53,334 nucleotides of DNA from Candidatus Poribacteria bacterium (GTDB lineage Bacteria > Poribacteria > WGA-4E > WGA-3G): contig JAAXHD010000189.1 of NCBI GenBank assembly GCA_012271015.1, positions 45,962-99,295 of the forward strand, written 5' to 3'. The notes beneath the pieces were generated by a model that was not told where the DNA came from, did not search any database, and worked only from the letters and a program-made list of their open reading frames with translations. Below are positions 1,964 through 46,991 of the stretch, piece by piece. Position numbers and translations under genes: made by a program. The first letter of the stretch is position 1. Every line of letters starts with the position of its first letter.

Positions 1964-2113
1964 GAGTCGGGAATCGGAGTGTTTTTGCTGGGGGTGTTTT
2001 TGCTGGGGTATTTCTGCGTATTGCTGGGGTGTTTCCTCAATTTCCGCCCTCCTACAAAAGGACTGAATGCCTCAGCGAAAACGTTTGAATTCACTCGCGC
2101 AATATGCTATGAT
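1964..2113 (+). repeat. Promoter-bearing dispersed repeat, copy A, filled with GTGTTTTTGCT elements
   Basis: The left flank GAGTCGGGAATCGGAGT (1964-1980) and right flank CCCTCCTACAAAAGGACTG (from 2047) match copies at 4257 and 14643. Between them lie at least two adjacent GTGTTTTTGCTGGG units and a degenerate third (1979-2035). The repeat ends in a promoter-like TTGAAT (2085-2090), 17-bp spacer and TATGAT (2108-2113). This promoter points into the 3' end of the minus-strand oxidoreductase, so here it could make only antisense RNA. Confidence 0.6.
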
Positions 2114-4256: not shown

Positions 4257-4349
4257 GAGTCGGGAATCGGAGTTCCCTCCTACAAGAGAACTGAATACCC
4301 TAACATTACCGACAGAAAGGTTGATTTTTACCTGGAAACGTGGTAATAT
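4257..4349 (+). repeat. Promoter-bearing dispersed repeat, copy B (empty of the 21-bp element)
   Basis: GAGTCGGGAATCGGAGT (4257-4273) is followed after a single T by CCCTCCTACAAGAGAACTG. In copies A and C the same two flanks are separated by GTGTTTTTGCTGGG sequence, so this is an unoccupied site. The repeat ends in TTGATT (4321-4326), a 17-bp spacer and TAATAT (4344-4349), which would serve as the promoter of the membrane-protein gene at 4440. Confidence 0.65.
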
Positions 4350-4439
4350 GTAATCGGTTCTGGCAGGCATGTACCACCGTAAATCCTCTGGTAGTTCCTC
4401 CCTTCTTTTCAATGTTATTTTAATCCTATAAATATTCTT

Positions 4440-6386
4440 ATGGCACCTACAGCAAATTATTCATCCAATATTCAAGAAACATCGCGGTCTGGGCATCCGG
4501 GTGTAACCTTCCGCGCGATTCTGATCGGCATCGTCCTCATACCACCAAACACCTATTTTATCATGGCGAACCATCTCCGTTACTGGAGTACCCTCCCGAC
4601 AACGATGTCGCTGATTTACAACGTCGTGGTAACATTGGTGGTGTTGACGGGTCTCAATTTTTTGCTCAAATTGTTGCTACCCCGTTTTGCGCTCCGACAG
4701 GGAGAACTGCTCACTATCTACGTTATCCTTTCTATCTCATCAGCAATCGCGGGGCATGATATGATGCAGACAGTTGTGCCCGTTATTCCGAACGGTTTTT
4801 GGTTTGCGACACCCGAAAATGAATGGCAACAACTTTTCTGGCGGCATCTACCGAATTGGATGACCCTCAGTGAGTTATCCGTCTTGCAAGACTTCTACGA
4901 CGGCGATACAACCTTTTATACACAAAGGTATCTGGCAGCGTGGTGGGAACCGATTTTATGGTGGACTATTTTTTTATCTGTCCTGATTTGGGTGATGATT
5001 TGTATCGACCTGCTTCTTCGGAAGCAGTGGATTGAACGAGAGCGGCTCAGCTACCCGATCGTCCGTCTGCCGATAGAAATGACCTACTCAGATGGACGCC
5101 TCTTCAAAAACGGAATGTTCTGGGCAGGATTCGCGATTGCGGGAGGTATCGATCTAATTAACGGTATCCATGCGTTCTTTCCGGCATTTCCTGAGATACC
5201 GGTTCGTCAGGCAAACCTCGGCATCTATTTCACCGAAAAGCCGTGGGATGCAATCGGCTGGACTCCCGTTTATATTCTCTCATTCGGTGTAGGACTTGCT
5301 TTTTTAATGCCGTTGGAGATGTCGTTTTCGCTCTGGTTTTTCTACCTATTTTGGAAAGGGGAACGTGTTTTGGGACGAGCGATGGGACTTCAAGTTTTGC
5401 CCGGGTTCCCCTATGACGGACCGCAAGGTGTAGGCGCGTATCTGGCTATCGCCTGCTTTGCGCTCTACGGTGGACGCAAGCATTTTTATGCGATATTCAG
5501 AAATCTGATCCGAAAAGCAGATACAAACCTTCCACCTGAAATGCGAGACACAACGGATTATCGGTGGCCCGTAGCAGGATTAATCGGAGGCGTTCTCTTT
5601 CTCTTCATCTTCTCAAATCGAGGAGGGATGGCGCTCTGGATGATAACGTTGTATTTCGCCATCTATTATCTTCTTGCGCTGGGAATTACACGCGTTCGTG
5701 CTGAAGTGGGTCCACCGACCCATGAGATGTTCGTAGCAAACCCCCGACAATTTATCATAGATTCGCTCGGCTCGCGTATGATCCCGCCACCGAGCCTCAC
5801 GATGATGTCGCTCTATTTTGCTTTCAATCGCGGGTACCGTGCCCATCCAATGCCCCACACATTGGAAGGTTTTAAACTCGTGGAAGTGGCAAATATGCGT
5901 GCAGGCCGGATGGTAGTAGCACTGATGTGCGGCGTTTTTTTCGGCATCCTCGCCTCATTCTGGGCGTATCTGGTGGTTTCTTACAAGATAGGCGCGAATC
6001 CTGGGTTAGGGACTGGTGGTTACAATATGCTCCGCTCGTGGCTCTACTATCCGACAGAAACAAACATCCCCGCAGTGGGGTTTATGGGGGTCGGATTCCT
6101 GTTCACGGGATTACTGTGGTGGATGCGAACCCGTTTTCCGATGTTCCCGTTTCACCCTACTGGTTACGCCGTGGCGAGTAGCATGTGGACCTTCGGGTGG
6201 CTTTGGTTCTCTGTGTTAATTAGTTGGGGGATCAAAAACCTCATTTTGCGGTTCGGCGGTATTCGGCTTTATCACCGCGTGTTACCGCTCTTCTTGGGAC
6301 TCATTCTCGGTCAATTTATTGTAGGTGGCACGTGGGTGCTAATCCGACTGATCTGGGGTGTGTCTGTGTATTCGTTCTATCGGTAA
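4440..6386 (+). CDS. Large polytopic membrane protein, DUF6785/DUF6784 type
   Basis: A 648-residue protein with at least ten membrane-spanning segments. Recognisable blocks are GHDMMQ and FATPENEWQQLF near the N-terminal third, a loop with RKQWIERERLSYPI, a central TRVRAEVGPPTHE, and HPMPHTLEGFKL. The same blocks occur in the gene at 51619-53334, so the window holds two paralogues. I recall these proteins as DUF6785/DUF6784, found in Poribacteria, Planctomycetes and Armatimonadetes, with no established function. The conserved charged and Pro-rich loops suggest a transporter or membrane enzyme, but that is inference. Transcription probably starts from the repeat-borne promoter at 4321-4349. 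No strong ribosome site is visible. Confidence 0.75.
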   Translation: MAPTANYSSNIQETSRSGHPGVTFRAILIGIVLIPPNTYFIMANHLRYWSTLPTTMSLIYNVVVTLVVLTGLNFLLKLLLPRFALRQGELLTIYVILSISSAIAGHDMMQTVVPVIPNGFWFATPENEWQQLFWRHLPNWMTLSELSVLQDFYDGDTTFYTQRYLAAWWEPILWWTIFLSVLIWVMICIDLLLRKQWIERERLSYPIVRLPIEMTYSDGRLFKNGMFWAGFAIAGGIDLINGIHAFFPAFPEIPVRQANLGIYFTEKPWDAIGWTPVYILSFGVGLAFLMPLEMSFSLWFFYLFWKGERVLGRAMGLQVLPGFPYDGPQGVGAYLAIACFALYGGRKHFYAIFRNLIRKADTNLPPEMRDTTDYRWPVAGLIGGVLFLFIFSNRGGMALWMITLYFAIYYLLALGITRVRAEVGPPTHEMFVANPRQFIIDSLGSRMIPPPSLTMMSLYFAFNRGYRAHPMPHTLEGFKLVEVANMRAGRMVVALMCGVFFGILASFWAYLVVSYKIGANPGLGTGGYNMLRSWLYYPTETNIPAVGFMGVGFLFTGLLWWMRTRFPMFPFHPTGYAVASSMWTFGWLWFSVLISWGIKNLILRFGGIRLYHRVLPLFLGLILGQFIVGGTWVLIRLIWGVSVYSFYR

Positions 6387-6442
6387 ATTGTCTGAATCAG
6401 GTTTTTTCGATCTTCAAGGATTCCCGGGGTAAGAGAATTATT

Positions 6443-6505
6443 GAACTGAAGGCCCGTGCTTATACTGAAAAAGGCTTGATAGTTTTTGCAAAACTCGGGT
6501 ATAAT
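6443..6505 (+). promoter_or_regulatory. Sigma70 promoter for the Uma2 gene within a diverged copy of the promoter-bearing repeat
   Basis: TTGATA (6476-6481), an 18-bp spacer and TATAAT (6500-6505) precede the Uma2 gene. The upstream segment GAACTGAAGGCCC ... CTGAAAAAGG matches the part of copies A-C that lies just before their -35 boxes. It therefore looks like a fourth, diverged copy lacking the left flank. Confidence 0.65.
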
Positions 6506-6570
6506 ATAAATAAGAAAATAAAAGAGCAGAACACTTATCCCCAACAAGGTATTCAACAAGGAGAACAGGC

Positions 6571-7296
6571 ATGGCGATGTCCGAAAAGGGTGGGCACCTC
6601 GGTTATGCCCTGCCCGAAGAAAGAAGTCTTTATCCAGACACGGATGGTCAACCTATGGCAGCGAGTGATGATCATAGACGCGTTCTGATGCGGATCCTTC
6701 GGGTGCTTGAATCGTTTTTTAAAGATAACCCAGAGGTGTATGTCTCTGGAGATCTGCTGATGTACTATGTGGAGGGGGATCCCCGGAAAGTCGTGGCTCC
6801 GGATGTGCTTGTCTCTTTCGGGATAGGTCAGAAGGCGCGTCGGACGTATCTCGTCTGGCAGGAGGAAAAGCCGCCTGATTTCGTGATGGAGTTGGCGAGC
6901 GAAAGTACCTACCAAAAGGACTTGGGGGAAAAGATGCAGATTTACGCGGGTTTAGGGATTACCGATTATTTCTTGTGTGATATAGAGGATTTATATTTAC
7001 CCGCTCCGCTGATGGGGTTTACATTAGTAGATGGCAAATATCAACCGGTTCCGCAAGCGACAGACGGGGGTGTTCATTCCGCAGTAATCGGTTTAACGTT
7101 GCACCTGCAGCCCGACGTTTTACAGTTTTATGATCCTGCTACAGAGCAGTGGCTTCAGACCCCGGAGGAAGCAGCAGAAGCTCGCACAGAGCAGGAAACT
7201 CTGGCACGCCAGCAAGCGTCGGCACGCGCAGAGACAGCGGAGGCGGAAGTTGCACGCCTGCGCGCCGAACTGGAACCTTTGCGGGGTAATCCCTAA
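6571..7296 (+). CDS. Uma2-family (DUF820) PD-(D/E)XK nuclease-like protein with C-terminal coiled coil
   Basis: A 241-residue protein. The Uma2/DUF820 core shows APDVLVSFG (Asp78), VMELAS (Glu107) and EKMQIYAG (Lys121), which together make a PD-(D/E)XK active site. Residues from about 175 onward are rich in Glu, Ala and Arg and form a coiled coil (ARTEQETLARQQ and onward), a tail often added to Uma2 proteins. The start at 6571 has AAGGAG 6 nt upstream. The gene has its own strong promoter at 6476-6505. Uma2 genes are often multicopy, and their cellular role is not established beyond the nuclease fold. Confidence 0.85.
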   Translation: MAMSEKGGHLGYALPEERSLYPDTDGQPMAASDDHRRVLMRILRVLESFFKDNPEVYVSGDLLMYYVEGDPRKVVAPDVLVSFGIGQKARRTYLVWQEEKPPDFVMELASESTYQKDLGEKMQIYAGLGITDYFLCDIEDLYLPAPLMGFTLVDGKYQPVPQATDGGVHSAVIGLTLHLQPDVLQFYDPATEQWLQTPEEAAEARTEQETLARQQASARAETAEAEVARLRAELEPLRGNP

Positions 7297-7323
7297 GGCA
7301 TCGGCAGGATAGGGACATTGCTC

Positions 7324-8133
7324 TTACAAGTACCCAGCAAATTGATCTCGGACGCGCACTTTATCCGCGTCGTCCCCAAAACCGAGACTAAACCATCCGT
7401 CATAGCCGCGTCCATTCAACTGTGCAAATAGATCCGCAAAATCGATCGTCCCTTCGCCGGGAATGAGATGGATTTCATACTCACCGGTATTGTCGTTGAG
7501 ACGGACCTGACCGATGTTCTCTACGCCGAATGCATCCAAAAATCCTTGCCATCCCTCAGGAACGAGATGCCCATGCGCGACATTAAACGCCCACTTGAGA
7601 TACGGAGAGCGAAGCGCATCAAAAAACCAATGCGTCTCTTCAACATTATGAGGGATATAATGGATTTCAGCGTGTTCAGGTTCCCGGTTGTGGTTCTCAA
7701 AGAAGATGACGATCTCTGCCTGTTCTGCCCGATCGACCAGTCGCTGGATCCGTTCAATCGCCGCGTCCCGACGTTGTGCGACATCCCCAAAATGATAACC
7801 GCCATGCCCAATGAGCCACCCGCACCCAAGCCGTTTTGCGAGTTCTAAATTAGCAAAGAGATAGTCGTCAACGGCTTCAGACATAATAGGCGTGTATTCA
7901 GCGTTGTTGATTGCCGACGAAGGGTGAATACCCATGGCGACTTCGTGTGTTTCACAGAGGTCTCGGACTGTGCGAACGCGCGCCGAGTCAAATGAGGCTA
8001 CGTCATTTGGCGGAACATCGGCTTGGAAGTCGATATATCCAAATCCATTTTCTGCTGCCCATTGGATCGATTCTTCAAGCGGTCTATTTTTGGGTGCATC
8101 AAAACCGAAGCGATCTTTTGTATTATTCTGCAA
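7324..8133 (-). CDS. Sugar phosphate isomerase/epimerase-like TIM barrel
   Basis: About 269 residues of the xylose-isomerase-like TIM barrel (AP endonuclease 2 fold). Metal-site segments typical of the family are visible: GIHPSSA, GWLIGHGGYH, IVIFFENHN, WAFNVAHGH and QVRLNDNTGEYEIHLIPGEG. I chose the TTG at 8133 because GGGAGG lies 9 nt upstream and it overlaps the previous gene by only 11 nt. A TTG at 8196 would overlap 74 nt and add non-family residues. It is the last gene of a minus-strand sulfatase, glycosidase-like and isomerase cluster, fitting stepwise breakdown of a sulfated sugar. The exact substrate is unknown. Confidence 0.8.
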   Translation of the reverse strand: MQNNTKDRFGFDAPKNRPLEESIQWAAENGFGYIDFQADVPPNDVASFDSARVRTVRDLCETHEVAMGIHPSSAINNAEYTPIMSEAVDDYLFANLELAKRLGCGWLIGHGGYHFGDVAQRRDAAIERIQRLVDRAEQAEIVIFFENHNREPEHAEIHYIPHNVEETHWFFDALRSPYLKWAFNVAHGHLVPEGWQGFLDAFGVENIGQVRLNDNTGEYEIHLIPGEGTIDFADLFAQLNGRGYDGWFSLGFGDDADKVRVRDQFAGYL

Positions 8134-9358
8134 AGTCTCTGCCCTCCCGTTGTGTAGCTTCCCATTTCCGATGCGTTGCAAAAAGTTTGACTTCAAAGGG
8201 ACGCATTCGTGTCACGAACGACCCATCAGACACAGCGGTTTTCTCGTCTCCGTAGAGTTCCACAAACTTGGTGCTGTTGAGGGCATCCAATCCGCTGACT
8301 TCCACGCCCATGTGGGCATGTTCATCTTCGTTAACGAGGACAATGAGCCAGTCCCGTCCGGTTCTCCGAGCCGTGATGCTCACGCCGCGCAGCGAGGCAG
8401 GGATGGATATATCGGTGCGTCCATCATCAATCGCTTGGACTGTAACATACTGCTCAACGGGTGCTGTGAGAAAAGGTTGGAGCGCGGCGAGTTCACTCGT
8501 CAAGGCGTAAAGCGACTTCCGAAATGCCTCTTTTCCGTCGGATTTGAGATAACTGGAACCCCAATACAGTATGCCTCTCGCGCCGTGCGTGATGCAAGCA
8601 TACGCCATCAGGCGCGACTCAGCAAAGGTGGGAAAGGCGATAATGTCGGTGTCTCCGTCGTCCAAATCGTTCCATGAAAATCCCTGAAGCACCATCCATA
8701 CAGGTCTGCCTTTGCCGACCTGTCTCCAACGGTCTGTTGAATCGGCAAGCCGGATAGCGGGACGACCCTCCGCCCGAATGGGATAATCATCGCAACCGGT
8801 GATGTCTACGGAGTCAATGTACTGTCGGACAAATTTCAGATCGCTGTCGCGCGCTTCATTTATCCAAATCTGTCGATTCTGTGGATCAATACTGCGGATG
8901 AATGCAATAGCCTCGCGCATATTCGGCATAATCTCTGCTGCCTGTTCCTCAGAATATTGGATAGCGAGCGGGGTCTGCATCCACCACTCGCCCTTATTCG
9001 GGAACACCGCCAATTGATCCTGTTTCCAGAGTCCACTATATGCGGTGAAACTCCACACCACCTCATCTGGACCTTCCCACACAGCAAGAGCAGGATGCTC
9101 TGCCAGCGTACGGACATGCTCCTGAAACTCTGATGTCGCACCGGATCGAAGTGCCAACGGTACCCACCCCATCATCCCGTGGGCATGTGCGCGATCCAGT
9201 GAATCCGTGTTCCCACATCGAATGAGATTGACCCCTGCTTCTGCCATATCTTTGAGTGCGTCATCGTCAGCGGGGTGTTCATAAAACCCGATCGGGAAGC
9301 GTCGGCGTCCATCCTGCGTGAGAAACCCATCGCCGTATCCATAGAGCATATCGTTCAT
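8123..9358 (-). CDS. Glycoside-hydrolase-like TIM-barrel protein
   Basis: About 411 residues. The sequence opens with RRFPIGFYEHPADDDALKDMAEAGVNLIRCG, the beginning of a beta-galactosidase/GH42-like (alpha/beta)8 barrel. It continues with WEGPDEV (a candidate acid/base glutamate), DITGCDDYP, GARGILYWG and a C-terminal beta-sandwich. I prefer the ATG at 9358 (GGAGG 6 nt upstream) over the one six codons earlier. No signal peptide is evident, so it may act inside the cell. It starts 25 nt after the upstream sulfatase stop and overlaps the downstream isomerase start, so the three are very probably one transcript. The precise GH family was not identified. Confidence 0.65.
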   Translation of the reverse strand: MNDMLYGYGDGFLTQDGRRRFPIGFYEHPADDDALKDMAEAGVNLIRCGNTDSLDRAHAHGMMGWVPLALRSGATSEFQEHVRTLAEHPALAVWEGPDEVVWSFTAYSGLWKQDQLAVFPNKGEWWMQTPLAIQYSEEQAAEIMPNMREAIAFIRSIDPQNRQIWINEARDSDLKFVRQYIDSVDITGCDDYPIRAEGRPAIRLADSTDRWRQVGKGRPVWMVLQGFSWNDLDDGDTDIIAFPTFAESRLMAYACITHGARGILYWGSSYLKSDGKEAFRKSLYALTSELAALQPFLTAPVEQYVTVQAIDDGRTDISIPASLRGVSITARRTGRDWLIVLVNEDEHAHMGVEVSGLDALNSTKFVELYGDEKTAVSDGSFVTRMRPFEVKLFATHRKWEATQREGRDFAE

Positions 9359-9382
9359 TAGGAGCCTCCATCTCATATATCC

Positions 9383-10762
9383 TTACGCCAATAGGTGATT
9401 TTCCCACCATGCGACGTAATCGGCATCGCTTATATCGTGTGAGAGTCCTCGCTTTTCCATGTCCTGCCAGAATCTTTCCGCCATATTTTCGTCCCAATAC
9501 GTGGTGACCTCTGAGGATTCAGGTATGTCTCCCATGTCCCCTGTTTTCGCTATCCACGAATCGAGTTGCGCGGCGAGTTCGCTTTGCACGGTGTCATAGC
9601 CTGGATCAGCGGCGAGGTTATTAATTTCATAGGGATCTGTTTCCAGATCATACAACTCTTCAGCTGGACGTGTCTGTTTCATGAAATGCTGTTGCGCGGC
9701 GGATAACTTACCCTTCGCGTCTAACAGTGGCATCAAGGTCCAGAGTGGATACTGCAGTTTCTTATAGCCGTTGAATTGCCTATAGGGACGCTCAGGGTGA
9801 TAATTGCGAATGAATTTATAGCGGTGTGTCCGTATGCATCGGATTCTGTCATCCGTTCCGTCACACCGATCTCTCGCCGCGAAGATAGCGTCGCGTGATG
9901 TAGCGTCTGTTCCGAGGAAAACTTGCCCTTGCATATACCCAGGAATATCAACACCAGCAAGGGATAACGTTGTTGGTGCGAAATCAACGCCGCTGATGAG
10001 TTTATCATCGAGGGTGTTAGGCTCAACATGTCCGTGCCATCGGACGATGAGTGGAATATGGATGCCCCCGTCATAGAGGAACTGCTTGCAACGGATATGC
10101 GCCCGTCCGTGATCGCTCATGAAGAAGATGATGGTATTGTCTGAGAGTCCTTCATCATCGAGTCGCTTAAGAATCTGTCCGACCTTCCTATCCAAGATTT
10201 GAATGCTTTCGAGGTAGAGTGCCCAATCCTTTCGGACGAGTGGATGATCGGGATAGTAAGGTGGCAATTCGACATCCTCAGGGGAAATAGGACGTTCTGG
10301 ATCGGGTTTGAAGACGCGGTGTGTATCAGGGATGTTAATCTGCGCGTAAAAAGGTTGCCCTTCGGGGCGTTCGCTCCAGTCGATGCCATCAAAAGGGTGT
10401 TCCCGCTGAAAGTTGAAATCGGTTTTTCCGGGGCGATCATAGGGTGGTCCTGGACTGTTGCAAGTAAAATAGCCTGCTTCCCGGAAGCAATCGGTGATGA
10501 GTTTCATATCCGTCCGTAACGGCTTATCACGGTTGCTGCGATGGTTGTGCGCATCAAAGTGCGTCTGATAGGTACCAGTGATCAGTGCGGAGCGACTCGG
10601 TGAGCAGACCGGGCATGTGACGAAAGTATTGGTATAACGAACACCTTCAGACGCGAGCCGATCAATATTTGGTGTCGCAACGGCAGGTGTGCCGTAACAG
10701 CCGAGATCAGGTGAGAGATCTTCACCGTAAATCCAGAGGACATTCGGTTGTGTTGTGGGCAT
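9383..10762 (-). CDS. Type I sulfatase
   Basis: 459 residues. The N-terminal PNVLWIYGEDLSPD carries metal ligands Glu14/Asp15. The sulfatase signature CSPSRSALITG places the formylglycine-forming cysteine at Cys53 (C-S-P-S-R). Further sites are FFMSDHGR and a C-terminal EELYDLETDPYE block common in sulfatases. Activity would need an anaerobic-type or FGE maturase, and none is in this window. No signal peptide is seen. The ATG is preceded by CGCAAGGAATAATTAAAAT, a member of the repeat-supplied leader family, which provides the AAGGA ribosome site. It heads the cluster with the glycosidase-like protein and the isomerase. The N-terminus resembles heparan-type or S1_8-like sulfatases, but the substrate is not assignable. 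Confidence 0.9.
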   Translation of the reverse strand: MPTTQPNVLWIYGEDLSPDLGCYGTPAVATPNIDRLASEGVRYTNTFVTCPVCSPSRSALITGTYQTHFDAHNHRSNRDKPLRTDMKLITDCFREAGYFTCNSPGPPYDRPGKTDFNFQREHPFDGIDWSERPEGQPFYAQINIPDTHRVFKPDPERPISPEDVELPPYYPDHPLVRKDWALYLESIQILDRKVGQILKRLDDEGLSDNTIIFFMSDHGRAHIRCKQFLYDGGIHIPLIVRWHGHVEPNTLDDKLISGVDFAPTTLSLAGVDIPGYMQGQVFLGTDATSRDAIFAARDRCDGTDDRIRCIRTHRYKFIRNYHPERPYRQFNGYKKLQYPLWTLMPLLDAKGKLSAAQQHFMKQTRPAEELYDLETDPYEINNLAADPGYDTVQSELAAQLDSWIAKTGDMGDIPESSEVTTYWDENMAERFWQDMEKRGLSHDISDADYVAWWENHLLA

Positions 10763-10829
10763 ATTTTAATTATTCCTTGCGGATAAGTATCAGTTGCTTG
10801 TATCTTGGCGTTCTTCGCTTTCGAGTTGA

Positions 10830-10880
10830 AGAAACACCCCAGCAAGGGGAAATTGAGGAAATACCCAAGCAAAAACACCC
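10830..10880 (-). repeat. GTGTTTTTGCT-type element, double copy
   Basis: In minus orientation GGTGTTTTTGCTTGGG TATTTCC and TTGCTGGGGTGTTTC flank a short CAATTTCC linker, similar to the compound copy at 1979-2035. It lies in the gap between the PhyH gene and the sulfatase gene. Confidence 0.6.
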
Positions 10881-10946
10881 TGCGCCGTTTTTGCAGGCTT
10901 AGGTTTCGTTAGGTCTGCACAAACTAACAGTTTATGCTACAAGTAA

Positions 10947-11816
10947 CTACTCCGTTCCGTTGACATTGTCCACCACATAACGATTACGGAAGAGCGTTCG
11001 CCGGAGCGGCGGCATTTCAGCGAGGAGCTTCGGGGGCGGTTGGTACACCTTGGCGAAACCGCTATCAACAGGGCTATACAGGTTAAAAACGGCAATCCTA
11101 TCATTTTCAGTATTCGTCCATTCCGTGGCACTATGGGTGAGTGCTTCCGTGAAGAAGAGTAGCGAACCCCCTGGACAGCCGTAAGTCGACCAAATATCAG
11201 AATCAGGATTTTGGATATCAGGCGGTGCTGTGTAAACCGATTTGTGGCTACCGGTTACTAAAAGGGTCCCGCCCTGTCCTTTCTTCACCTCGTTCAATTC
11301 CCATACGATGCGGGTGTGTGGACTATAGCCTTTGCCGGGGAAAGCGTTGTAGTAGTGAACATCACCGGGAAAACGGAGTAAACCGTTGCCGTTGTGCGGT
11401 CCAAACCGTCCCATACCGGGAGCACGGTAAAAGAGACTTGCACTTTCAACGGCAAAACCGTAGCACTCTGGACTCGTTACGGCTGGATGCGCCGTAAATT
11501 CGTTGAGGAGTGAAACAACAAGGGGATGATCGATGAGTTTCTGCAGTGGACCTCCGACGGGACTGCGTTCATGCTCTGGAATAGATTCTGGGTCATCGTG
11601 CAGGCGGTAGCCGAAATCGCGCATCTCTTTGAGTTCTGATCCGGTAAATACCTCGGGGACCAGAAACCAACCATGCGTATCGAACTCATAGCGCTGCTCG
11701 GGTGTTAATTCGGGGATAGCTAAACCGTCGGCGTTTTGGGTCGGGAATTCGCATGTATCCGGTGGCAACAATGCTCCAAGCCATGGTTGCTGATTTTTGT
11801 CCGTCTGTTTTTCCAT
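10947..11816 (-). CDS. Phytanoyl-CoA dioxygenase (PhyH)-like protein 1
   Basis: 289 residues of the PhyH-like Fe(II)/2-oxoglutarate double-stranded beta-helix family. The N-terminus (YEFDTHGWFLVPEVFTG) and core blocks (VWELNEV, GGTLLVTGSHKS, GGSLLFFTEALTHSATEW) are typical. The proximal metal motif, normally HxD, reads His141-Asn-Gly-Asn. The distal histidine is present (His228). The start is an ATG preceded by two tandem CGCAAGGAAAAATTAAAA-like leader units. It is paralogous to the gene at 12004-12924 and lies upstream of the sulfatase cluster. The substrate is unknown. Iron-dependent hydroxylase is the default family role, but the altered HxD leaves catalysis uncertain. Confidence 0.8.
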   Translation of the reverse strand: MEKQTDKNQQPWLGALLPPDTCEFPTQNADGLAIPELTPEQRYEFDTHGWFLVPEVFTGSELKEMRDFGYRLHDDPESIPEHERSPVGGPLQKLIDHPLVVSLLNEFTAHPAVTSPECYGFAVESASLFYRAPGMGRFGPHNGNGLLRFPGDVHYYNAFPGKGYSPHTRIVWELNEVKKGQGGTLLVTGSHKSVYTAPPDIQNPDSDIWSTYGCPGGSLLFFTEALTHSATEWTNTENDRIAVFNLYSPVDSGFAKVYQPPPKLLAEMPPLRRTLFRNRYVVDNVNGTE

Positions 11817-11925
11817 TTTTTAATTTTTCCTCGCGGCTTTTTAATTTTTCCTTGCGGTTCGGTCAGGTCGGTTGCGATAATAAAGTGCCTTTCCGTATAT
11901 CCGCCCTCCGCTACGCTTACGGGCT
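11817..11925 (-). repeat. Dispersed leader repeat that supplies a ribosome binding site
   Basis: Read on the minus strand it runs AGCCCGTAAGCGTAGCGGAG, GGCGGATATACGGAAAGG and ACCTGACCGAACCGC, then AAGGAAAAATTAAAA twice in tandem, ending at the ATG of the PhyH gene. The same order occurs at 25636-25724, and partly at 45757-45835 and 46905-46991. The 3' end carries the only plausible Shine-Dalgarno site for the gene. Confidence 0.65.
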
Positions 11926-12003
11926 ATAATTTTGGTTTAATGTTTGATACTTCACTGAAAGGACCAGAAGCACATACATTAAAAGTCTCACGGCTTTAGG
12001 CAT

Positions 12004-12924
12004 TTAAACTTCGGCGGGATAGGCGGATGTCCGCTGGTTAAAATCTCCATTCACGACGTTCCCGCCTGCGTAAGCCTCCCGAAAAAGCGTTTGCCGTTTA
12101 GGCGGCATTGCTTCGAGGAGCTGCGGATGAGGGAGCCAATTTGACCATCGACTTGCGACGGTATTGTACAAATTCGAGATGGAGACCCGGTCGGCCGTAT
12201 CGACTTGAACCTGCGTCTGTGTCATAGACTCTGTCAGAAGAAAGAGAGAACCCGGTGGACATTCATACGTCTCCCACAATGGCGAGTCCGGATTCTGCGA
12301 GGCTTCTGGTATCGGGTACGCGGCTTTATGGCTCCCTGTAATAAACCGAATGTTATTTGTTCCAGCAGTAACCTCAGTTAGCTCCCATACGGCACGCGTC
12401 AGCCCGCTCCAACCACGTCCGGGGACGCACCGATAGAGATGAGAATCTCCCGGTAAGCGAAACAACCCATTTCCCTTGTGAAGGACCGACTGGGCTTCAG
12501 TATGTCTTGAGGCATTACCGAAGAACGCGGCTGTCTCTTCGAGTCGAAATCCATAGCAATCCTCACTTGCCGCGGGTGGATACGCCAAAAATTCATTCAA
12601 GAATCCAACAATGACGGGATGATCAGCGAGTTTTTGAAGTGGACCGCCGAGTGCGCAACGTTCCGGTGCCGAGACATGTTCCGGTGCCTCGTTCAGACGC
12701 TGGCAGAATTCGCGCATCTCTGTGATGTCAGTGTCCGATAAAACACTTGGAATCAGGAGCCAGCCATTCCGGTCAAAATCGTATTTTTGTTTCTGGGTTG
12801 GAACAGTGACGGGAGTACCGTCAGCGTTGGTTTTTGTGAGATCTTCAGGCTCGACTTCAACAGCACTGCCCAAATTTTTATTAACAATAAAAGGTTTCCT
12901 CGTTGCGAGTTTTTTGTAAGCCAT
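12004..12924 (-). CDS. Phytanoyl-CoA dioxygenase (PhyH)-like protein 2, divergent metal site
   Basis: 306 residues from the ATG at 12924, which has AAAGGA 9 nt upstream. Earlier in-frame starts would add 44 residues with no family match. It aligns along its length with the gene at 10947-11816 (DRNGWLLIPSVL, GPLQKLADHPV, GNGLFRLPGDSHLYR, VWELTEV, ITGSHKAAYP). The proximal motif is His149-Lys-Gly-Asn. The position of the distal histidine is Gln236 (SMTQTQVQV against ALTHSATEW in the paralogue), so at least two usual metal ligands are changed. It may be a non-enzymatic or repurposed paralogue. The two genes are separated by 187 bp including a leader repeat. Confidence 0.75.
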   Translation of the reverse strand: MAYKKLATRKPFIVNKNLGSAVEVEPEDLTKTNADGTPVTVPTQKQKYDFDRNGWLLIPSVLSDTDITEMREFCQRLNEAPEHVSAPERCALGGPLQKLADHPVIVGFLNEFLAYPPAASEDCYGFRLEETAAFFGNASRHTEAQSVLHKGNGLFRLPGDSHLYRCVPGRGWSGLTRAVWELTEVTAGTNNIRFITGSHKAAYPIPEASQNPDSPLWETYECPPGSLFLLTESMTQTQVQVDTADRVSISNLYNTVASRWSNWLPHPQLLEAMPPKRQTLFREAYAGGNVVNGDFNQRTSAYPAEV

Positions 12925-13012
12925 CAGAGTATTCCTTTTAGCATGCGTCTGAAACTGCCTTCCATAACCTTCGGACTGCAGTGTTAAGTTTTCCAGTCTC
13001 GGTCGGGATTGA

Positions 13013-13621
13013 TTAACGGTTCTGTGTTTCCAACACGCGGAACATGTGGCGTGCATAACTCACGGTTGAGATAAATACAAATACCAGCGCAAGACAAAGA
13101 CCGTAAAATTCAATATTCCTCGGTAAGCGAGACATTATCGGACGGAGCAGATAAAGCAGTATAACAATTGACAAAAAGAAACTGGTACATTTTCCCCATA
13201 AGTTAGAACGGGTGATCATCTTCGCCTTATATGCCAAGACAGCATTGCCAAGCACAATCAAGGTATCACGGATAACAATCACCAGAAATGCCCACATTGG
13301 GAACCTGGAGTGGAATATAGCGAGAGCAAAGATGCCAGCAGAAAGTGCGAGCTTATCCGCGACTGGGTCTAATATATAACCGAGTTCAGTATGTTGCTTC
13401 AAACGTCGAGCAAAGAACCCATCTAACAGGTCCGTGATAACGGCGACTGTACCACAAGCGATTGCGACGATCCACTGGGCACGGTAAATGAAGTAAAAGA
13501 TAAAAGGGACCGTGAGGAGTCGGAAAATCGATAATATATTGCTGACATAGAAGAAATCCCGGCGTGTAATTTGGATCGACCGGGTTTCGGTAAATTGATG
13601 GATGGGAGCCTTTAGTGCCAT
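13013..13621 (-). CDS. CDP-alcohol phosphatidyltransferase family protein (PgsA-like)
   Basis: 202 residues with about five membrane helices. The family signature is complete: Asp64, Asp67-Gly68, Ala71-Arg72, Gly81, Asp85 and Asp89 (DLLDGFFAR then GYILDPVAD). These integral membrane enzymes join a CDP-diacylglycerol to an alcohol. The length and motif context fit phosphatidylglycerophosphate synthase, the first committed step to phosphatidylglycerol and cardiolipin, but other alcohols are possible. The ATG at 13621 lacks a clear Shine-Dalgarno site. It is flanked by the PhyH gene and the Lon-domain gene, with no evidence of functional linkage. Confidence 0.85.
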   Translation of the reverse strand: MALKAPIHQFTETRSIQITRRDFFYVSNILSIFRLLTVPFIFYFIYRAQWIVAIACGTVAVITDLLDGFFARRLKQHTELGYILDPVADKLALSAGIFALAIFHSRFPMWAFLVIVIRDTLIVLGNAVLAYKAKMITRSNLWGKCTSFFLSIVILLYLLRPIMSRLPRNIEFYGLCLALVFVFISTVSYARHMFRVLETQNR

Positions 13622-13714
13622 TATGTTATTTATTACAGATAAGATCTTGTGTGTAGGAGCAAACGTCTCAATACGGAAAGCATACCAATTTCGTCCAGCA
13701 CGATTGGGATCTTC

Positions 13715-14383
13715 TCAATTGTTTTGCGCCGCCAATTGAAAAGCTATCCGTCGATTCTGGTCGGTTAGAATCTCGATTTCGCGTGTGAGGAGTTGCTCTA
13801 AGGGAATTGTCTCCAATAAAGTTTGTTTTTCTTCAAGTGAAATCCGCAACCTGATGCCGACTTGGTAAGCAAGTTCCCTCGGATCATTCGGCTGTTCTTC
13901 AGGGGAACTCCAAGCGAAAATTAATCGACTGGATAATTTCTCGTACGCTTTATACAATTCTTCGGCTTGTGTCATGAGCAATTCGGATACCGATTCAATT
14001 TCTGTATCCAAGTCATCTAACATCCGAACGCGACCTGTAAGATAAGAGAGATGCTCCTGAACCTCCAGAATTTGAAAGCGGTACTCACCCGCTGTGATAA
14101 TATTCATGCGGCCGTCGTCTAAATTTTCGACTTGAAGGATACGGGCGGCTGTGCCAATTTCATAGGGTGTAGCAGCGTCTCCCACCTCTTTTCCTTCTTT
14201 GATAAGCACAACTCCAAACTCAGACTGATGTTCCAAGCAGAATTTAATCATCGTTCGGTAACGTGGTTCAAAGATGTGTAGCGGTAAAAAACCGCCGGGG
14301 AACAAGACTGTCTGTAACGGAAAAAGCGGAATTTGTCGTTCATAAGGCGTTTGACTTTTTGATGAGACCGGGGCACTCCGCAT
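13715..14383 (-). CDS. Stand-alone Lon N-terminal (substrate-binding) domain protein
   Basis: About 222 residues starting at the ATG at 14383, which has GAGGAG 7 nt upstream. A start 12 codons earlier lacks one. The whole protein is the LON substrate-binding domain: IPLFPLQTVLFPGG, LHIFEPRYRTMI, FGVVLIKEG, IGTAARILQVENLDDGR, then a helical C-terminal part. There is no AAA+ or Ser-Lys protease module. Such proteins occur widely in bacteria as single-domain homologues, and their role is mostly undefined (possible adaptor or regulator of proteolysis). A 13-bp tandem duplication lies just upstream. Confidence 0.85.
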   Translation of the reverse strand: MRSAPVSSKSQTPYERQIPLFPLQTVLFPGGFLPLHIFEPRYRTMIKFCLEHQSEFGVVLIKEGKEVGDAATPYEIGTAARILQVENLDDGRMNIITAGEYRFQILEVQEHLSYLTGRVRMLDDLDTEIESVSELLMTQAEELYKAYEKLSSRLIFAWSSPEEQPNDPRELAYQVGIRLRISLEEKQTLLETIPLEQLLTREIEILTDQNRRIAFQLAAQNN

Positions 14384-14441
14384 GTGAATACTCCTCTTTG
14401 CACGATGTTCAATGTACAAGATGGATTTTACTTTCGGTGCC

Positions 14442-14467
14442 GTAGAACATTGTAGTAGAACATTGTA
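14442..14467. repeat. 13-bp perfect tandem duplication upstream of the Lon-domain gene
   Basis: GTAGAACATTGTA occurs twice head to tail. Read on the minus strand each unit contains TACAAT, a possible -10 box with a weak TTGGTT 16 bp upstream of the first unit. It could affect expression of the gene starting at 14383. Confidence 0.4.
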
Positions 14468-14642
14468 AAGGTAGCCTGCAAAGAACCAACCCTTCTTTAG
14501 AGCCTATGAAATAAACATTTGTCTTCAGGCACATCGTTTCTTATATTTTTGCACAAAATTCTTGATTCGTCAACAGTTTTTTACACAGCATAGGAACATC
14601 TATAGTAGATTCCCCAATTATCAATAGGCAATGAACGAGAGA

Positions 14643-14752
14643 AATCGGGAATTGGAGTGTTTTTGCTGGGGTGTTTCCACCCTCCTATGGAAGAGCAAAA
14701 TGCCCTGCACTTACCGAAAGGTCTTGACATTTAGGAGATTTTCGGCTATAAT
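14643..14752 (+). repeat. Promoter-bearing dispersed repeat, copy C, with one 21-bp element and a perfect consensus promoter
   Basis: The left flank AATCGGGAATTGGAGT ends at 14658, a GTTTTTGCTGGGGTGTTTCC insert fills 14659-14679 (21 bp), and CCCTCCTATGGAAGAGC follows. The repeat ends in TTGACA (14724-14729), a 17-bp spacer and TATAAT (14747-14752), an exact sigma70 consensus, 115 nt before the start at 14867. The rest of the 14384-14866 gap holds AT-rich sequence and the tandem duplication noted above. Confidence 0.7.
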
Positions 14753-17376: not shown

Positions 17377-18789
17377 TCACTGACGAAACGGTGCATCCAG
17401 TTGCGTCTGCACAAGCCGCTCCAAAACTTGCAGGCGCAACCCCGTTTCAATATCCGCAACTTCAGATCTACCGGCGAGGTTCTGTATCTCATTTGGATCG
17501 TTTTGCACATTAAATAAAAGATAAACCTCACCGTTTGCATTGAGTGCTATCTTCCATTCCCGATTTAAAAGCATAATCTCGCCTTCTATCTCGGAAATTG
17601 CAAAGTCTCGGTGTGTCGCTTCAGGTTGCGTCAACACGGGACACAACGATTTTCCGAATTGGCGATGCTCTAACTCGCCACCCGCCATCTCAACAAGCGT
17701 CGGACCGATGTCGATCCATTCCACTGGACTTTCACAAATTGTTCCGGTGGGAGGGGTGTTTTTGCTTGGGTGTTCCCTCGATTCCTTAGGGGTTCGCACG
17801 AGGAGCGGAATCCGAACTGCCCCGTTCAGAAAATTGCTTTTATAGATGAGTCCATAATCCCCATTCATTTCACCATGGTCGGAGGTATGGACAATGATTG
17901 TATTTCCGAGTTCACCGCGCGCCTCAATTGCGTCAAGAATCTCGCCGATCTGATCATCGATAAGTGTCACGCTACCTGCGTAATTCGCCCGGAGTCTTCC
18001 GATTTCGCCGGGTTCAAACGTCGGGTTCACACGCTCCATGAGCCTGTCCAAATGTCCTGTGGGACGCCTTTCCATAAATGGACGCGGGATCGCTGGCAGC
18101 ATGTCCTTTGGATCGTACATGCTGGCATAAGGTTCCGGTGTATCCCACGGCTCATGGGGTCCTCCGAAACTCACCCAGCAGCACCAAGGTTCAGCCCGCT
18201 TATAGTTCTGGAGGTATCGCTTCGCCTGTTGTCCGACGTAGACATCGGCGTAATCTTCGAGTCCCAACGTCGAAGGACGGACGAGATACGGTTTCGTGCC
18301 GAACCGCTCGCGATAATCGGCGCGGTAAGCATCCCATAAGCCTTTTTCCTCCCACATAGCAGTCATGTGGGATAGGACATTCGCGCTTGCCCTCGGTCCA
18401 CCGATCTCGTTCACATCGTCCAATCCATAAGCGTTCATTAACCCTTCGCGTTCGCGCAGATCACCACTGTGCGGATGGAGATGCGTTTTCCCGAAAAGAC
18501 TCGTCCGATATCCAGCATCACGCACGGCTTGCATCCATGTCGGCGTTTCGGCAGGCATTTGGTGATTCATGTTGTTCCAGACGTGGGTGTTATGGGGATA
18601 CAACCCGGTCGCCAAGCTGAGTCGCGTCGGGATACAGACCGGCGATGTAGTGACGCAGTTTGTGAATCGGATACCTTCACCGGCAATCCGATCCAAATTT
18701 GGGGTCTGGACCCAATCGCCACTGCAACCCATCGCGTCCCAACGCTGTTGGTCTGTCATAAGGAGAAGGATATTCGGGGTGGTTGCCAT
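17377..18789 (-). CDS. Type I sulfatase containing an in-frame repeat insertion
   Basis: 470 residues. The N-terminus NILLLMTDQQRWDAMGC and the signature CIPTRLSLATG (formylglycine site Cys52, C-I-P-T-R) mark a type I sulfatase. Further marks are IIVHTSDHGEMNGDYG (metal ligands) and a C-terminal NVQNDPNEIQNLAG. Between IPLLVRTP and GTICESPVEWIDIGPTLVEMAGG sits a segment containing EHPSKNTP (about residues 339-346), encoded by the 21-bp repeat element. Relatives would be expected to run through here without it. The start lies 3 nt after the stop of the upstream isomerase (GAGGAT ribosome site inside the stop), so the genes are coupled. No signal peptide is seen. The substrate is unknown. Confidence 0.9.
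   Translation of the reverse strand: MATTPNILLLMTDQQRWDAMGCSGDWVQTPNLDRIAGEGIRFTNCVTTSPVCIPTRLSLATGLYPHNTHVWNNMNHQMPAETPTWMQAVRDAGYRTSLFGKTHLHPHSGDLREREGLMNAYGLDDVNEIGGPRASANVLSHMTAMWEEKGLWDAYRADYRERFGTKPYLVRPSTLGLEDYADVYVGQQAKRYLQNYKRAEPWCCWVSFGGPHEPWDTPEPYASMYDPKDMLPAIPRPFMERRPTGHLDRLMERVNPTFEPGEIGRLRANYAGSVTLIDDQIGEILDAIEARGELGNTIIVHTSDHGEMNGDYGLIYKSNFLNGAVRIPLLVRTPKESREHPSKNTPPTGTICESPVEWIDIGPTLVEMAGGELEHRQFGKSLCPVLTQPEATHRDFAISEIEGEIMLLNREWKIALNANGEVYLLFNVQNDPNEIQNLAGRSEVADIETGLRLQVLERLVQTQLDAPFRQ
17753..17775 (+). repeat. GTGTTTTTGCTTGGGTGTT element inside the sulfatase coding sequence
   Basis: A copy of the roughly 21-bp element lies antisense within the sulfatase gene and is translated on the minus strand as EHPSKNTP without breaking the frame. 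Confidence 0.75.
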
Positions 18790-19871: not shown

Positions 19872-19893
19872 GGGGTTTTTGCTTGGGTGTTTC
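19872..19893 (+). repeat. GTTTTTGCTTGGGTGTTTC element, intergenic
   Basis: A single copy of the roughly 21-bp element lies between the isomerase start and the end of the four-gene membrane operon. Confidence 0.65.
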
Positions 19894-25582: not shown

Positions 25583-25635
25583 TAGTTGTTGGTTTTCAGT
25601 TTTCAGTTAAGAGGTTTTGTTAAACCGAAGTGCGC

Positions 25636-26862: not shown

Positions 26863-28652
26863 GAGTACTTCTCGCGGTGAGAAACTGTTTTCGTTTATCG
26901 AATAGCTTTGTTATACCCGCGATCCTCATCAGTGGCTTCAGTTTCCGACTCATCGGCATAAACATCGGCTTGCCTGATTCTCCCGACCCCCGTGAAGTGC
27001 TAATCGCACGAGATGTTCTGAATCTAATCCACTTCACAGCCCCTCCTCAAATCTACAACTGGCCCGGAACGGCATGGTTTTACATCATTGCGGTGGTAGG
27101 TAAATTGCTGTCGCTTACGGGTTGGCAATTAACAGAAGCCCGCGTAATCTTATTGGCACGCGGTATCAACGTTCTGTTGTCTACAGCAACACTTTGGTTC
27201 ACCTACCGCATCGGCGTTCACTGTTTCAGCAAACGTATAGGTCAGATTGCGACCGGATTACTCACTGTGGCGATGTTACATGCCACGAATGAATCGCGTT
27301 TTGCACTTGTTGACATCCCCGCGACTTTCTGTGTAACGTTGTTTCTCTATCTTGTGACGCGTGAGCGGTCTTCCTCAGACGCGCTCACATTTCAAACAGC
27401 GGTATGGCTCGGCGTTATCGCAGGAGTTGGTTTCGCAGTCAAATTTACAACTGTTTTCGCCAGTTTCTCTCTGCTGGTTTTCACTCTAAGTGAAGACTTT
27501 CCTCCACGCGGTAGGGGCAGTTTGAAACCACATCTACCAGGGAGCTCCGTAACTCCTAAAAAATTAGCAACAATCATCGGCGTTTCCGCACTAACCTTTA
27601 CGCTCCTCTGCCCCTATTGGCTCATTGATCTGGTTTCGCCAGAGTGGAATTTCTTCTTTGAGGATTTCTGGTACGAAGCTACCCATTACCATCGCGGGCA
27701 CTTCGGTCTCATCGCTGCAGCGGAATCTGGCTTACTACATCGGTTTATCTATCTGTGGACGCTCCTGAAATGGGGCATGGGGCTGCCACTTGCACTCCTC
27801 GCGAGTTTGGGAGTCGTGTGTGCGATGGTGGAGATAAAAAGAAATCGCGAGCATGGGAAAACACCCAAGCAAAAACACTCGCTTCTACAAAAAGAGAAGG
27901 CGGTTGGTAAGTTTGCTACAGCAGAAGTGCTCTTACTAACTTTCGTCATTCCCTATCTACTCTTTATCGGGATACATAAAGTTAAGTTCGCACGTCATCT
28001 ACTCATACTCTATCCGACGCTCACTGTGCTCGCCGCTGCCGCATTCGTCCGTTTTCCGAACATTGTAAAAACCCTATTTCAGCTGGTCCATCCACGCGAG
28101 ACTCTGAATTCCCCGCATTCCACTGAAAGATTCAATACATTTGGGAAATGGTTTGGCATCGTTTTGGGGGGTGTTGTCGTGCTTTACTCGTTAATTTATA
28201 CCCTTTCCTTCGCCTCTATCCAATTCTCGCAACCCACTAAAATTGCAGCATCCGACTGGATAGCCACACACATTCCTCAAGAGGACTCCATTGCTATTGC
28301 GCCAGAGACCTTATTCGACTGGCTTCTTCCTGAGTTAGATTTCGTCGTAACAGATGAAAAGGTGAAATGGGTTCTTATCCTCGTGCCAGATCTTGAAGTG
28401 TTCCGAAAATACCAAGAGACACCTCAACGCTATCAAGCTGAGGATTGGTACCCTCTCAGTGAAATTGGATTCGAGGAAACGCTTGCGTTTTACGAGCGAG
28501 TCTTAGGGGAAGGAAGTCGATATGAATTGCACAAGACCTTCCGGTGCGCGCCGAAGTTCTTCGGTCTCGAAATAATATCCGATAGTGGTGCCCCGTTTCC
28601 GATGCGAGCACTTGCACATCCAGAACTCCGCATCTATCGGTATGTCAACTGA
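26859..28652 (+). CDS. GT39/ArnT-like membrane glycosyltransferase
   Basis: 597 residues. About ten membrane helices fill residues 15-440, followed by a soluble C-terminal domain (from about 455, SDWIATHIPQEDSIAIAPET). The first extracytoplasmic loop contains PDSPDPREVLIARD, the acidic catalytic-type site of GT39/PMT and ArnT-like enzymes that use polyprenyl-phosphate sugars. Later segments, including YWLIDLVSPEWNFFFEDFWYEATHYHRGH, look like members of this superfamily. It is located in the cytoplasmic membrane. A cytoplasmic-loop stretch, GKTPKQKHS (about residues 331-339), is encoded by the 21-bp repeat element. It is coupled by ATGA overlap to the GNAT pair, so an acetylated glycoconjugate pathway is conceivable. 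Confidence 0.75.
   Translation: MRVLLAVRNCFRLSNSFVIPAILISGFSFRLIGINIGLPDSPDPREVLIARDVLNLIHFTAPPQIYNWPGTAWFYIIAVVGKLLSLTGWQLTEARVILLARGINVLLSTATLWFTYRIGVHCFSKRIGQIATGLLTVAMLHATNESRFALVDIPATFCVTLFLYLVTRERSSSDALTFQTAVWLGVIAGVGFAVKFTTVFASFSLLVFTLSEDFPPRGRGSLKPHLPGSSVTPKKLATIIGVSALTFTLLCPYWLIDLVSPEWNFFFEDFWYEATHYHRGHFGLIAAAESGLLHRFIYLWTLLKWGMGLPLALLASLGVVCAMVEIKRNREHGKTPKQKHSLLQKEKAVGKFATAEVLLLTFVIPYLLFIGIHKVKFARHLLILYPTLTVLAAAAFVRFPNIVKTLFQLVHPRETLNSPHSTERFNTFGKWFGIVLGGVVVLYSLIYTLSFASIQFSQPTKIAASDWIATHIPQEDSIAIAPETLFDWLLPELDFVVTDEKVKWVLILVPDLEVFRKYQETPQRYQAEDWYPLSEIGFEETLAFYERVLGEGSRYELHKTFRCAPKFFGLEIISDSGAPFPMRALAHPELRIYRYVN
27856..27879 (-). repeat. GTGTTTTTGCTTGGGTGTTTT element inside the glycosyltransferase gene
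   Basis: The element is on the minus strand and is read through by the plus-strand gene as KTPKQKHS in a Lys/Arg-rich loop. Confidence 0.75.
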
Positions 28653-37125: not shown

Positions 37126-38204
37126 AGAACGAAAAAACAGACCGTGTAGGAGGGGTTTTTGGGGAAACACCCAAGCAAAAACACCCCGATTCCCTTTTTA
37201 AATTAGGGGGCGTGTTTCTACTGATTTTCGGAATGTTCTGTCTACCCTTAGCACATCTTGATGCCGATTCGATTAAGTTCGCAACACTCGCGCCAAAGGG
37301 TTCCACATGGATGAACAATTTTGAAGCGATGGGGAAAGAAATTCGCGCCAAAACAGACGGTGATCTCCGACTCCGTATCTATCCGAATGGGGTCCAGGGA
37401 GATGAACTTGATGTTATCCGCAAGATGCGCGCAGGATTGATCCACGCAGGTGCTATGACCGCTACAGGTCTCGGTGAGATACAGGAAGAGGTCCTGATTT
37501 TTCAACTGCCTCGAATGTTCAGAACCTACGAAGAACTTGATTATGTCCGAGACTACCTCCGCGCAGATCTCGACGAAGCCTTTATGGATGCGGGGTATGT
37601 CCTACTCGGTATGGGAGACATCGGCTTTTATTATATATTCAGTAACCAACCTATCCGCAATATTGCCGACCTTCAATCCACAAACGTCAAGATGTGGGCT
37701 CGTCCGGGCGACAAAATTGCGCTTGAGTTTTACAAAAACGCCGAGATTGCAACTGTGCCGAGAGAGGTTACACAGGTACTGTCTTCCCTCTACTCAGGGC
37801 ACCTCAACACCTTGGCTGCATCACCATATGTCACGGTCGCTCTGCAATGGCACGATAAATTCAAGTACATGACGAACCTTCCTGTTAATGTTGGTGTTGG
37901 CGCGACGGTCATAACAAAGGAAAAGTTCGATGAACTTTCTCCGGAGCTGCAGAAGGTTGTGCGTGAAACCGTGGACGCATATCAGGGCGATTTAATTCAG
38001 AATATCCGCAAGGATAATGAAAGGGCGCTTGAGGCACTGCAAAAAAAGGCAGGCATTGAAGTGGTTGAATTCGAGGATGACTCTCGGGAAGCGTGGGATG
38101 CCATCGCTATGGAAACCCACAAAGCCCTCGTCGGTGAGATATACTCGCAAAAGTTTCTTGACAAGATTAATGCCCTTTTGCAAGCGTACCGAGAGAAAAA
38201 TTAA
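37122..38204 (+). CDS. TRAP transporter DctP/TatP-type solute-binding protein with a repeat-derived N-terminus
   Basis: 360 residues. The mature DctP domain begins near SIKFATLAPKGSTWMNNF and continues with RLRIYPNGVQGDELDVIRKMRAG, KMWARPGDKI and LNTLAASPYVTVALQW. TRAP binding proteins capture organic acids or other small anionic solutes in the periplasm. The hydrophobic signal segment (LGGVFLLIFGMFCLPLAHL) is preceded by about 27 extra residues containing GETPKQKHP, which is encoded by the 21-bp repeat element, so the n-region is abnormally long. No dctQ/dctM permease genes follow. The next gene is a type ISP enzyme, so the membrane part is lost or elsewhere. Confidence 0.9.
   Translation: MKNEKTDRVGGVFGETPKQKHPDSLFKLGGVFLLIFGMFCLPLAHLDADSIKFATLAPKGSTWMNNFEAMGKEIRAKTDGDLRLRIYPNGVQGDELDVIRKMRAGLIHAGAMTATGLGEIQEEVLIFQLPRMFRTYEELDYVRDYLRADLDEAFMDAGYVLLGMGDIGFYYIFSNQPIRNIADLQSTNVKMWARPGDKIALEFYKNAEIATVPREVTQVLSSLYSGHLNTLAASPYVTVALQWHDKFKYMTNLPVNVGVGATVITKEKFDELSPELQKVVRETVDAYQGDLIQNIRKDNERALEALQKKAGIEVVEFEDDSREAWDAIAMETHKALVGEIYSQKFLDKINALLQAYREKN
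37161..37187 (-). repeat. GTGTTTTTGCTTGGGTGTTT element inside the TRAP binding-protein gene
   Basis: On the minus strand it is flanked by GGGAATCGG and CCCCTCCTACAC, the same flanks as in the promoter-bearing repeat copies. Here it is translated as GETPKQKHP ahead of the signal peptide. Confidence 0.75.
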
Positions 38205-46904: not shown

Positions 46905-46991
46905 GGTAGATGGAGAGGAACTTTCAGGAGCCCTGGGGAAACACCCAAGCAAAAACACCCACCTGAGCGAACCGCAAGGAAAATTAAAAAA
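46905..46991 (+). repeat. Leader repeat carrying a 21-bp element (minus orientation) before the DUF402 gene
   Basis: GATGGAGAGGAACTTTC is followed by a GGGGAAACACCCAAGC AAAAACACCC element (46936-46961), then CCTGAGCGAACCGCAAGG AAAATTAAAAAA up to the ATG at 46992. The leader repeat therefore has an element inserted in its middle, and still ends in the AAGGA ribosome site. Confidence 0.65.

Follow-up and report, generated by a model that had tools for sequence, protein, structure and literature searches.

We analysed a 53,334-nucleotide (nt) stretch of a Candidatus Poribacteria genome (contig JAAXHD010000189.1; hereafter, the window) and found that it carries a repeated unit of 20 nt, TGTTTTTGCTTGGGTGTTTC, which has almost certainly been inserted into pre-existing DNA. 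The findings as a whole are probably explained by a mobile repeat that is very small, non-autonomous and of the small dispersed repeat (SDR) type. In the window, a 23-nt form of the element was matched eight times with up to 3 mismatches, compared to none in 100 shuffles. In the whole assembly (G000; 4.94 Mb, 438 contigs), a 22-mer consisting of the 20-nt core and the preceding GG gave 220 matches with up to 3 mismatches, and the reversed pattern gave none. The shuffles and the reversed-pattern control rule out a chance or compositional motif. With at most 1 mismatch, the element was present in 34 of 35 other genomes sampled from the same genus, at 1 to 102 places each, and in 1 of 24 genomes from outside the genus. 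The single-contig genome G022 had no copy, even at 3 mismatches. When named genomes were scanned, all 80 among the matches listed were Poribacteria. The literature listings searched contained no description of the element in Poribacteria, and the matching passage of PMC3909097 deals with protein repeats. The sole exact match in a viral collection (L167, IMGVR_UViG_2740892559_000001, positions 13317-13338) may stem from a phage of Poribacteria or from host DNA.

The core is GT-rich and has no A on one strand. Over 194 unique instances it was nearly invariant, and its last position was C in 96%, giving a TTTC end. The left neighbour was G in 98%, preceded by G or A (RG); to the right stood a pyrimidine, any base and C (79%), with no conservation beyond. 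In a larger set of 252 instances, the core was preceded by GG in 201 and by AG in 40 (together 241), and 27 different trinucleotides followed it, among them CCC (65), TTC (49), TGC (35), CCT (20) and CGC (18). Both strands of the 22-mer folded to 0.0 kcal/mol with no hairpin; a 4-bp hairpin appeared only once the right-junction bases were added.

An earlier note on this DNA had proposed, from repeats with shared flanks, that a 21-bp element moved into existing sites and was amplified in one of them. The sites in question and the other copies in the window are as follows.

1967..2055, plus strand: host repeat TCGGGAATCGGAG...CCCTCCTAC holding an array of two near-complete core units and degenerate TGCGTATT / CTCAATTTC modules, 66 nt between the flanks
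4260..4283, plus strand: empty host repeat TCGGGAATCGGAGTTCCCTCCTAC, in which a single base parts the flanks (TCGGGAATCGGAGT-T-CCCTCCTAC)
10858..10877, minus strand: core (TGTTTTTGCTTGGGTATTTC), intergenic, then a second degenerate unit
14658..14677, plus strand: core TGTTTTTGCTGGGGTGTTTC within host repeat 14645-14688, the TT of the empty site replaced by core and CA
17757..17776, plus strand: core set in a hairpin repeat of a sulfatase gene (minus strand, 17377-18789), with a net gain of +12 bp that keeps the frame
19874..19893, plus strand: core (GGTTTTTGCTTGGGTGTTTC), lying in an approximately 245-bp repeat that has other genome copies
27858..27877, minus strand: core within a 597-codon open reading frame (ORF; PMT_2 family), host GTAGAAGCGAG..CTCGCGATTTC, a stretch missing from aligned relatives
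37145..37194, minus strand: host palindromic repeat within a DctP/TRAP solute-binding protein gene (37122-38204), absent in genomes G024 and G010
37164..37183, minus strand: core inside the DctP/TRAP-gene repeat, where the gene strand reads GETPKQKHP, net +21 bp
46938..46957, minus strand: core upstream of a DUF402 gene, in a repeat resembling a miniature inverted-repeat transposable element (MITE), with an empty counterpart in G024

The empty, single and multiple sites that the earlier note had placed at 4257, 14643 and 1964 were confirmed: one base separates the flanks at 4260-4283, 14645-14688 reads TCGGGAATTGGAGT followed by 21 nt and CCCTCCTAT, and 66 nt lie between the common flanks at 1967-2055. 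The copy that it described in the TRAP gene does hold one element on the opposite strand (on the minus strand, GGGAATCGGGG, element and CCCAAAAACCCCTCCTAC); its left flank proved to be a different one (AAGGGAATC), and extra host-repeat bases follow the element. The 21-bp insert is likewise a recurring one, with the correction that the core is 20 nt and the right junction differs by 2-3 bases.

We then counted empty and filled sites within the genome. The flank repeat occurred in G000 in 52 exact copies, of which 37 were empty and 15 filled; this count leaves out the array at 1967, whose length exceeds the exact-copy pattern. With 1.06 Mb compared, 88 of 208 instances had another place with matching flanks and no element. 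Self-hits and element-holding places were excluded and at least 14 matched bases per side were required, the weakest pairs being only loosely alike. The hosts were several unrelated small repeats, namely GTAGG^TTGGGTTGA, GGCGAGG^TTTCCTAACCTCGCC, GGCGAGG^ATTGTATCCTCGCC, GGTTCGG^TTAGGAAACCGAACC and GATAAGGGGG^ATTTAGGGGG, and insertions were most recognisable inside such repeats, both intergenic and coding. The insertion point was RG^TT or RG^ATT, with an exact left junction and a ragged right one, where the target loses 2-3 bases and gains a few that vary and are mostly pyrimidines. Insertion is thus not clean, since the right side swaps 2-3 target bases. In the host GTAGG..GGTTGA, 18 copies had TTG between the flanks and 15 filled copies had 24-26 bases with 12 different right ends. 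The net gain was +21 to +23 in this host, mostly +20 in the flank repeat of the earlier note, and +20 to +22 over most pairs. No target-site duplication was found in the empty/filled pairs compared.

Single loci were compared with those of relatives. At 14658, the sister genome G034 (L169) reads GGAG-TT-CCCTCC versus GGAG-core-CA-CCCTCC in the window, and the flanks are 90% and 94% identical; the element was found in none of the ten relatives entered, DNA at the site being present in six of them. At 37164, the distance from the start codon of the DctP gene to a conserved anchor was 49 in G024 and G010, 67 in G008, G031, G017 and G027, and 88 in G000. These distances correspond to a missing, an empty and a filled host repeat, and both steps (+18 and +21 bp) preserve the reading frame; GGGGTTAAAAACCCC has become GGGG-core-CCCAAAAACCCC. 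The TRAP copy of G034 (L235) was filled as well, with a different right junction and a shorter right side, so the insertion is older than that split or occurred twice. At 17757, in the sulfatase gene, the interval measured in 20 relatives was 36 bases in the bare gene and 51 with the host hairpin, compared to 63 when filled; among 28 aligned relatives, 14 had the bare gene, 14 the empty hairpin and none the element. All steps in the DctP/TRAP and sulfatase genes are multiples of three. The hairpin lacks its right arm at 17757 and in the G034 TRAP copy, as a deletion between insert-made C-runs would explain. In a further pair, G017 was filled and G008 empty, with flanks 94-96% identical, and the filled site at 46938 had an empty counterpart in G024.

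At 4257, where the earlier note would have been undermined by a filled ancestor, none of seven relatives was filled: the repeat was missing in six, and G010 had eight tandem empty copies. Deletion at this site is therefore without support. These eight host repeats, TCGGGAATCGGAGT[T/G]CCC[T/G]CCTAC (L251), correspond to a single copy in G000. The host repeat, too, is gained or lost between species. Same-locus empty/filled pairs were thus found along with the classified copies of the flank repeat, and those at 14658, 37164 and 17757 bear out insertion into pre-existing DNA beyond the comparison of paralogous repeats.

The proposed amplification was supported as well. At the 1967 locus, G010 and G031 have a single-element unit and an empty unit, and G000 has the array; a coding site with a single unit in G034 has as its ortholog in G000 an array that is 39 bp longer, as counted by hand, and in frame. 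We gathered 26 longer arrays from the loci. Their units were GTGTTTTTGCTTGG(G), TGCGTATTTC or TGCGGATTTC, and CTCAATTTC; they mostly start after RG and extend by 13-14-nt units. In some places (window 1980-2046, L093, L121, L143, L155 and L160), the TTTC of the core is followed by modules of TGCG[T/G]ATTTC (10 nt) and CTCAATTTC, which look as if a second tiny element targets TTTC. The core also varies by species, being GATAGG/GATAGAG in 8 of 13 places of G029 and GCTGGGG in 12 of 15 G002 places among the matches listed. Such variants point to a source inside each genome. The G029 copies, mostly GATAGG in place of GCTTGG (L222, L224, L226, L228, L232, L234, L236 and L242), form a species-specific sub-family. 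A conserved master locus was sought among the filled orthologs; there were a few shared old insertions and no clear master.

Coding insertions were examined in the 200 unique instances with enough flank. Thirty-three of these lay within open frames 180 codons or more in length, with at least 30 codons on each side, although part of these frames may not be genes. The sense strand was the C-rich one in 27 of the 33, and all three of its frames were used (PSKN in 10, PKQKH in 9 and TQAKT in 4).

Donors persist, no target is duplicated, and an exact junction sharing RG is paired with a ragged one. These features would fit a fixed-length templated extension of a 3' end followed by imprecise joining. 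Movement by copying, not by cut-and-paste, is very probable; primed templated synthesis is put forward tentatively, as a step that may well not hold. In such a process, a nick or break at the site would leave a 3' end ending in RG, which would be extended on a complementary template (...CACC-3'). Synthesis would stop at a fixed template end after TTTC, a few untemplated bases would be added, and the end would be rejoined to the other side. Re-annealing of the new end to the template start through the internal GGG could produce tandem units. A copy already in the chromosome might serve as the template, or else a dedicated RNA, which would be a C-strand RNA ending in ...AAAAACACC-3'. A telomerase-like reaction is a quite improbable version, in which a polymerase not of a recognised kind would carry a template of about 22 nt (5'-GAAACACCCAAGCAAAAACACC-3') in bacteria without a known reverse transcriptase. 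RG 3' ends at nicks or palindrome tips would then gain one copy, re-alignment on GGG would give several 13-14-nt GT-rich repeats, a few untemplated bases would precede rejoining, and in-frame peptides such as ETPKQKHP would be written into genes.

Several observations weigh against an SDR-type mobile repeat moved in this way. Neither a moving enzyme nor a template locus was found, and the tests of RVT_1 and Y1_Tnp for a responsible gene were negative. In 16 of the 36 genomes compared, no match to an RVT_1 reverse transcriptase was obtained; G010, a single contig with 78 copies, is one of them, as are G021 and G031. RVT_1 was, however, the only polymerase family searched, and the copies may be old. 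The G-rich strand was leading in 58 of 78 copies of G010 (p = 2e-5), where dnaA lies near a switch point; this bias was not seen in G018 (22 of 52, from 67 places with 15 on contig 2 omitted) or G005 (56 of 100, from 107 places). Since it occurred in one of three chromosomes, it is not claimed as general; noise in the sampled GC skew prevented the origin or terminus from being located. A preference for hairpin tips was weak, with stems of at least 7 bp in 19 of 194 sites versus 5.1 permuted (largest 12), and stems of at least 8 bp in none of 194 versus 1.8 permuted. In addition, the eight GATAGG/GATAGAG copies of G029 all lie in one kind of host, CTGGCGAGG..CCTCCTAACCTCGCC, with similar surroundings, so that some copies have spread with the host repeat and are not independent events.

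Among other explanations, microhomology-mediated template switching is possible, though on the unlikely side. An end that had stalled or broken at a small palindrome would anneal through RG with one of the many copies in the chromosome, copy it and return, with no dedicated enzyme. The RG microhomology on the left in 241 of 252 instances, the small and local changes at the right junction and the hundreds of donor copies agree with it. However, the copied stretch almost always stops at the same base (the C of TTTC, 96%) despite donors in many hosts, whereas free switching should often bring donor host sequence. It is unlikely that a short RNA is reverse-transcribed with priming at a target nick. 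Such a process would give one precise and one ragged junction, a fixed length and tandem units through template re-alignment; against this, the genomes in which no RVT_1 was found include G010, G021, G031 and G035, with 49-78 copies, and the RVT_1 count was uncorrelated with copy number (Spearman 0.20, p 0.24). Gene-count correlations used 36 genomes, G060 and G061 being dropped because they had no copy count.

Transposition in trans by a Y1 transposase of the IS200/IS605 or RAYT type, which is single-stranded and makes no target duplication, is improbable. Y1_Tnp matches were present in 37 of 38 genomes, the fixed target sequence left of the insert and the lack of target duplication would suit it, and so would the leading-strand bias in G010. 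However, the core is unfolded and lacks end hairpins, the element-free G022 has five Y1 matches, the count was uncorrelated with copy number (Spearman 0.20, p 0.23), the strand bias is lacking in G018 and G005, and ragged right ends would be unexpected. It is very unlikely that the copies spread by homologous recombination or mobility of filled host repeats, with the element's own insertion being rare. The family of similar filled hosts in G029 and the 15 filled copies of the flank repeat are in line with such spread, but the core sits in many unrelated hosts, one host has 12 right ends in 15 filled copies, and 14658, 37164 and 17757 are filled in G000 with an empty host at the same locus in relatives. 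That the filled state is ancestral and the empty copies are deletions can hardly be correct, as these loci lend it no support beyond a possible 9-bp loss between insert-made C-runs at the G034 TRAP copy, filled relatives numbered 0 of 7 at 4257, 0 of 10 at 14658 (six with DNA there) and 0 of 28 at 17757, and the empty sites have no remnant and agree with the uninterrupted repeat.

The insertion of an SDR-like element, which we prefer, was compared with known systems. Integron cassettes insert at G^TT and retain TT at both junctions; this reading was rejected because TT is lost at the right side. Readings as a DNA uptake sequence or a Chi-like site were dropped because the empty sites show insertion. 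The short tandem heptamer repeats of cyanobacteria are modular short units in arrays; the Poribacteria element resembles them in its modular arrays and differs in that single copies at defined targets prevail. SDR1-8 of Nostoc and its relatives were reportedly described by Elhai et al. in 2008. SDRs are about 20-27 nt, dispersed, located inside other repeats and their own copies, recently mobile and confined to one clade; SDR4-6 share a predicted secondary structure, and an RNA intermediate has been proposed for the cyanobacterial SDRs. By this description, the Poribacteria element is similar in its size of about 20 nt, high copy number, dispersal, filled and empty versions of one site, and nesting in other repeats; self-insertion is read from the tandem arrays, slippage being the alternative. 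It differs in belonging to another phylum, in lacking a conserved hairpin, in its RG^TT target, ragged right junction and 13-14-nt tandem growth, and in its occurrence inside coding genes, where each of the three frames of one strand is represented. A mobile DNA of about 20 nt has no room for a transposon end of the usual kinds, so that no accepted mechanism of movement is known for it, and the cyanobacterial SDRs are the nearest case. A precise target is a further likeness, as the passage on SDR5 in PMC4390886 puts its insertion point exactly at the junction of the third and fourth HIP1 bases, compared to RG^TT here.

Rickettsia palindromic elements (RPEs), in the passages of PMC10969869 and PMC2229807 that concern them, are palindromic, measure about 105-150 bp, carry terminal inverted repeats and lie in frame in protein genes. 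In-frame insertion is shared with them, whereas the Poribacteria core is 20 nt and non-palindromic, and identity with RPEs was rejected on these grounds; its host repeat is the RPE-like layer. Repetitive extragenic palindromes (REPs) and REPINs, associated with RAYT, are short and extragenic according to the relevant part of PMC3116915. The likeness is that both are short, dispersed and of high copy number, with movement presumably in trans, and that some hosts are palindromic. Identity was rejected because the core is neither a palindrome nor strictly extragenic, 33 of the 200 unique instances lying in long open frames. MITE identity was likewise rejected, as there is no pairing in the core and no target-site duplication in the empty/filled pairs. 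Since size, dispersal, nesting and target precision are SDR-like and the features of MITEs, REPs and RPEs are lacking, we place the element with the SDRs.

The element is one of the smallest mobile DNAs seen. It is genus-wide, with up to hundreds of copies per genome in more than 30 species and an element-free genome, G022, and the single-locus pairs give its footprint base by base, including insertions into protein genes. The question raised by the cyanobacterial SDRs becomes directly testable in a second, unrelated phylum, the sponge-dwelling Poribacteria, and the machinery that moves the element is brought within reach.

The MITE-like family that hosts the core at 46938 (ACCGCAAGGTAAAATTAAAA ... 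GGAGGGCGGATATACGGAGAGGAACGT) also lies upstream of genes at 11810-11940, 25582-25726 and 45524-45832, in addition to 46897-46998, and its AAGGAAAAATTAAAAAATGG end may give the downstream gene its ribosome-binding site and start codon. The annotated start at 46890 of ORF 46890-47546 is probably wrong. Since relatives keep ATGGAAACTGTAACACTTACC at about 46990, the element at 46938 likely lies in the 5' untranslated region. Near the DUF402 gene, two 300-nt stretches (46993-47292 and 47575-47874), 582 bases apart across adjacent ORFs, are 74% identical.

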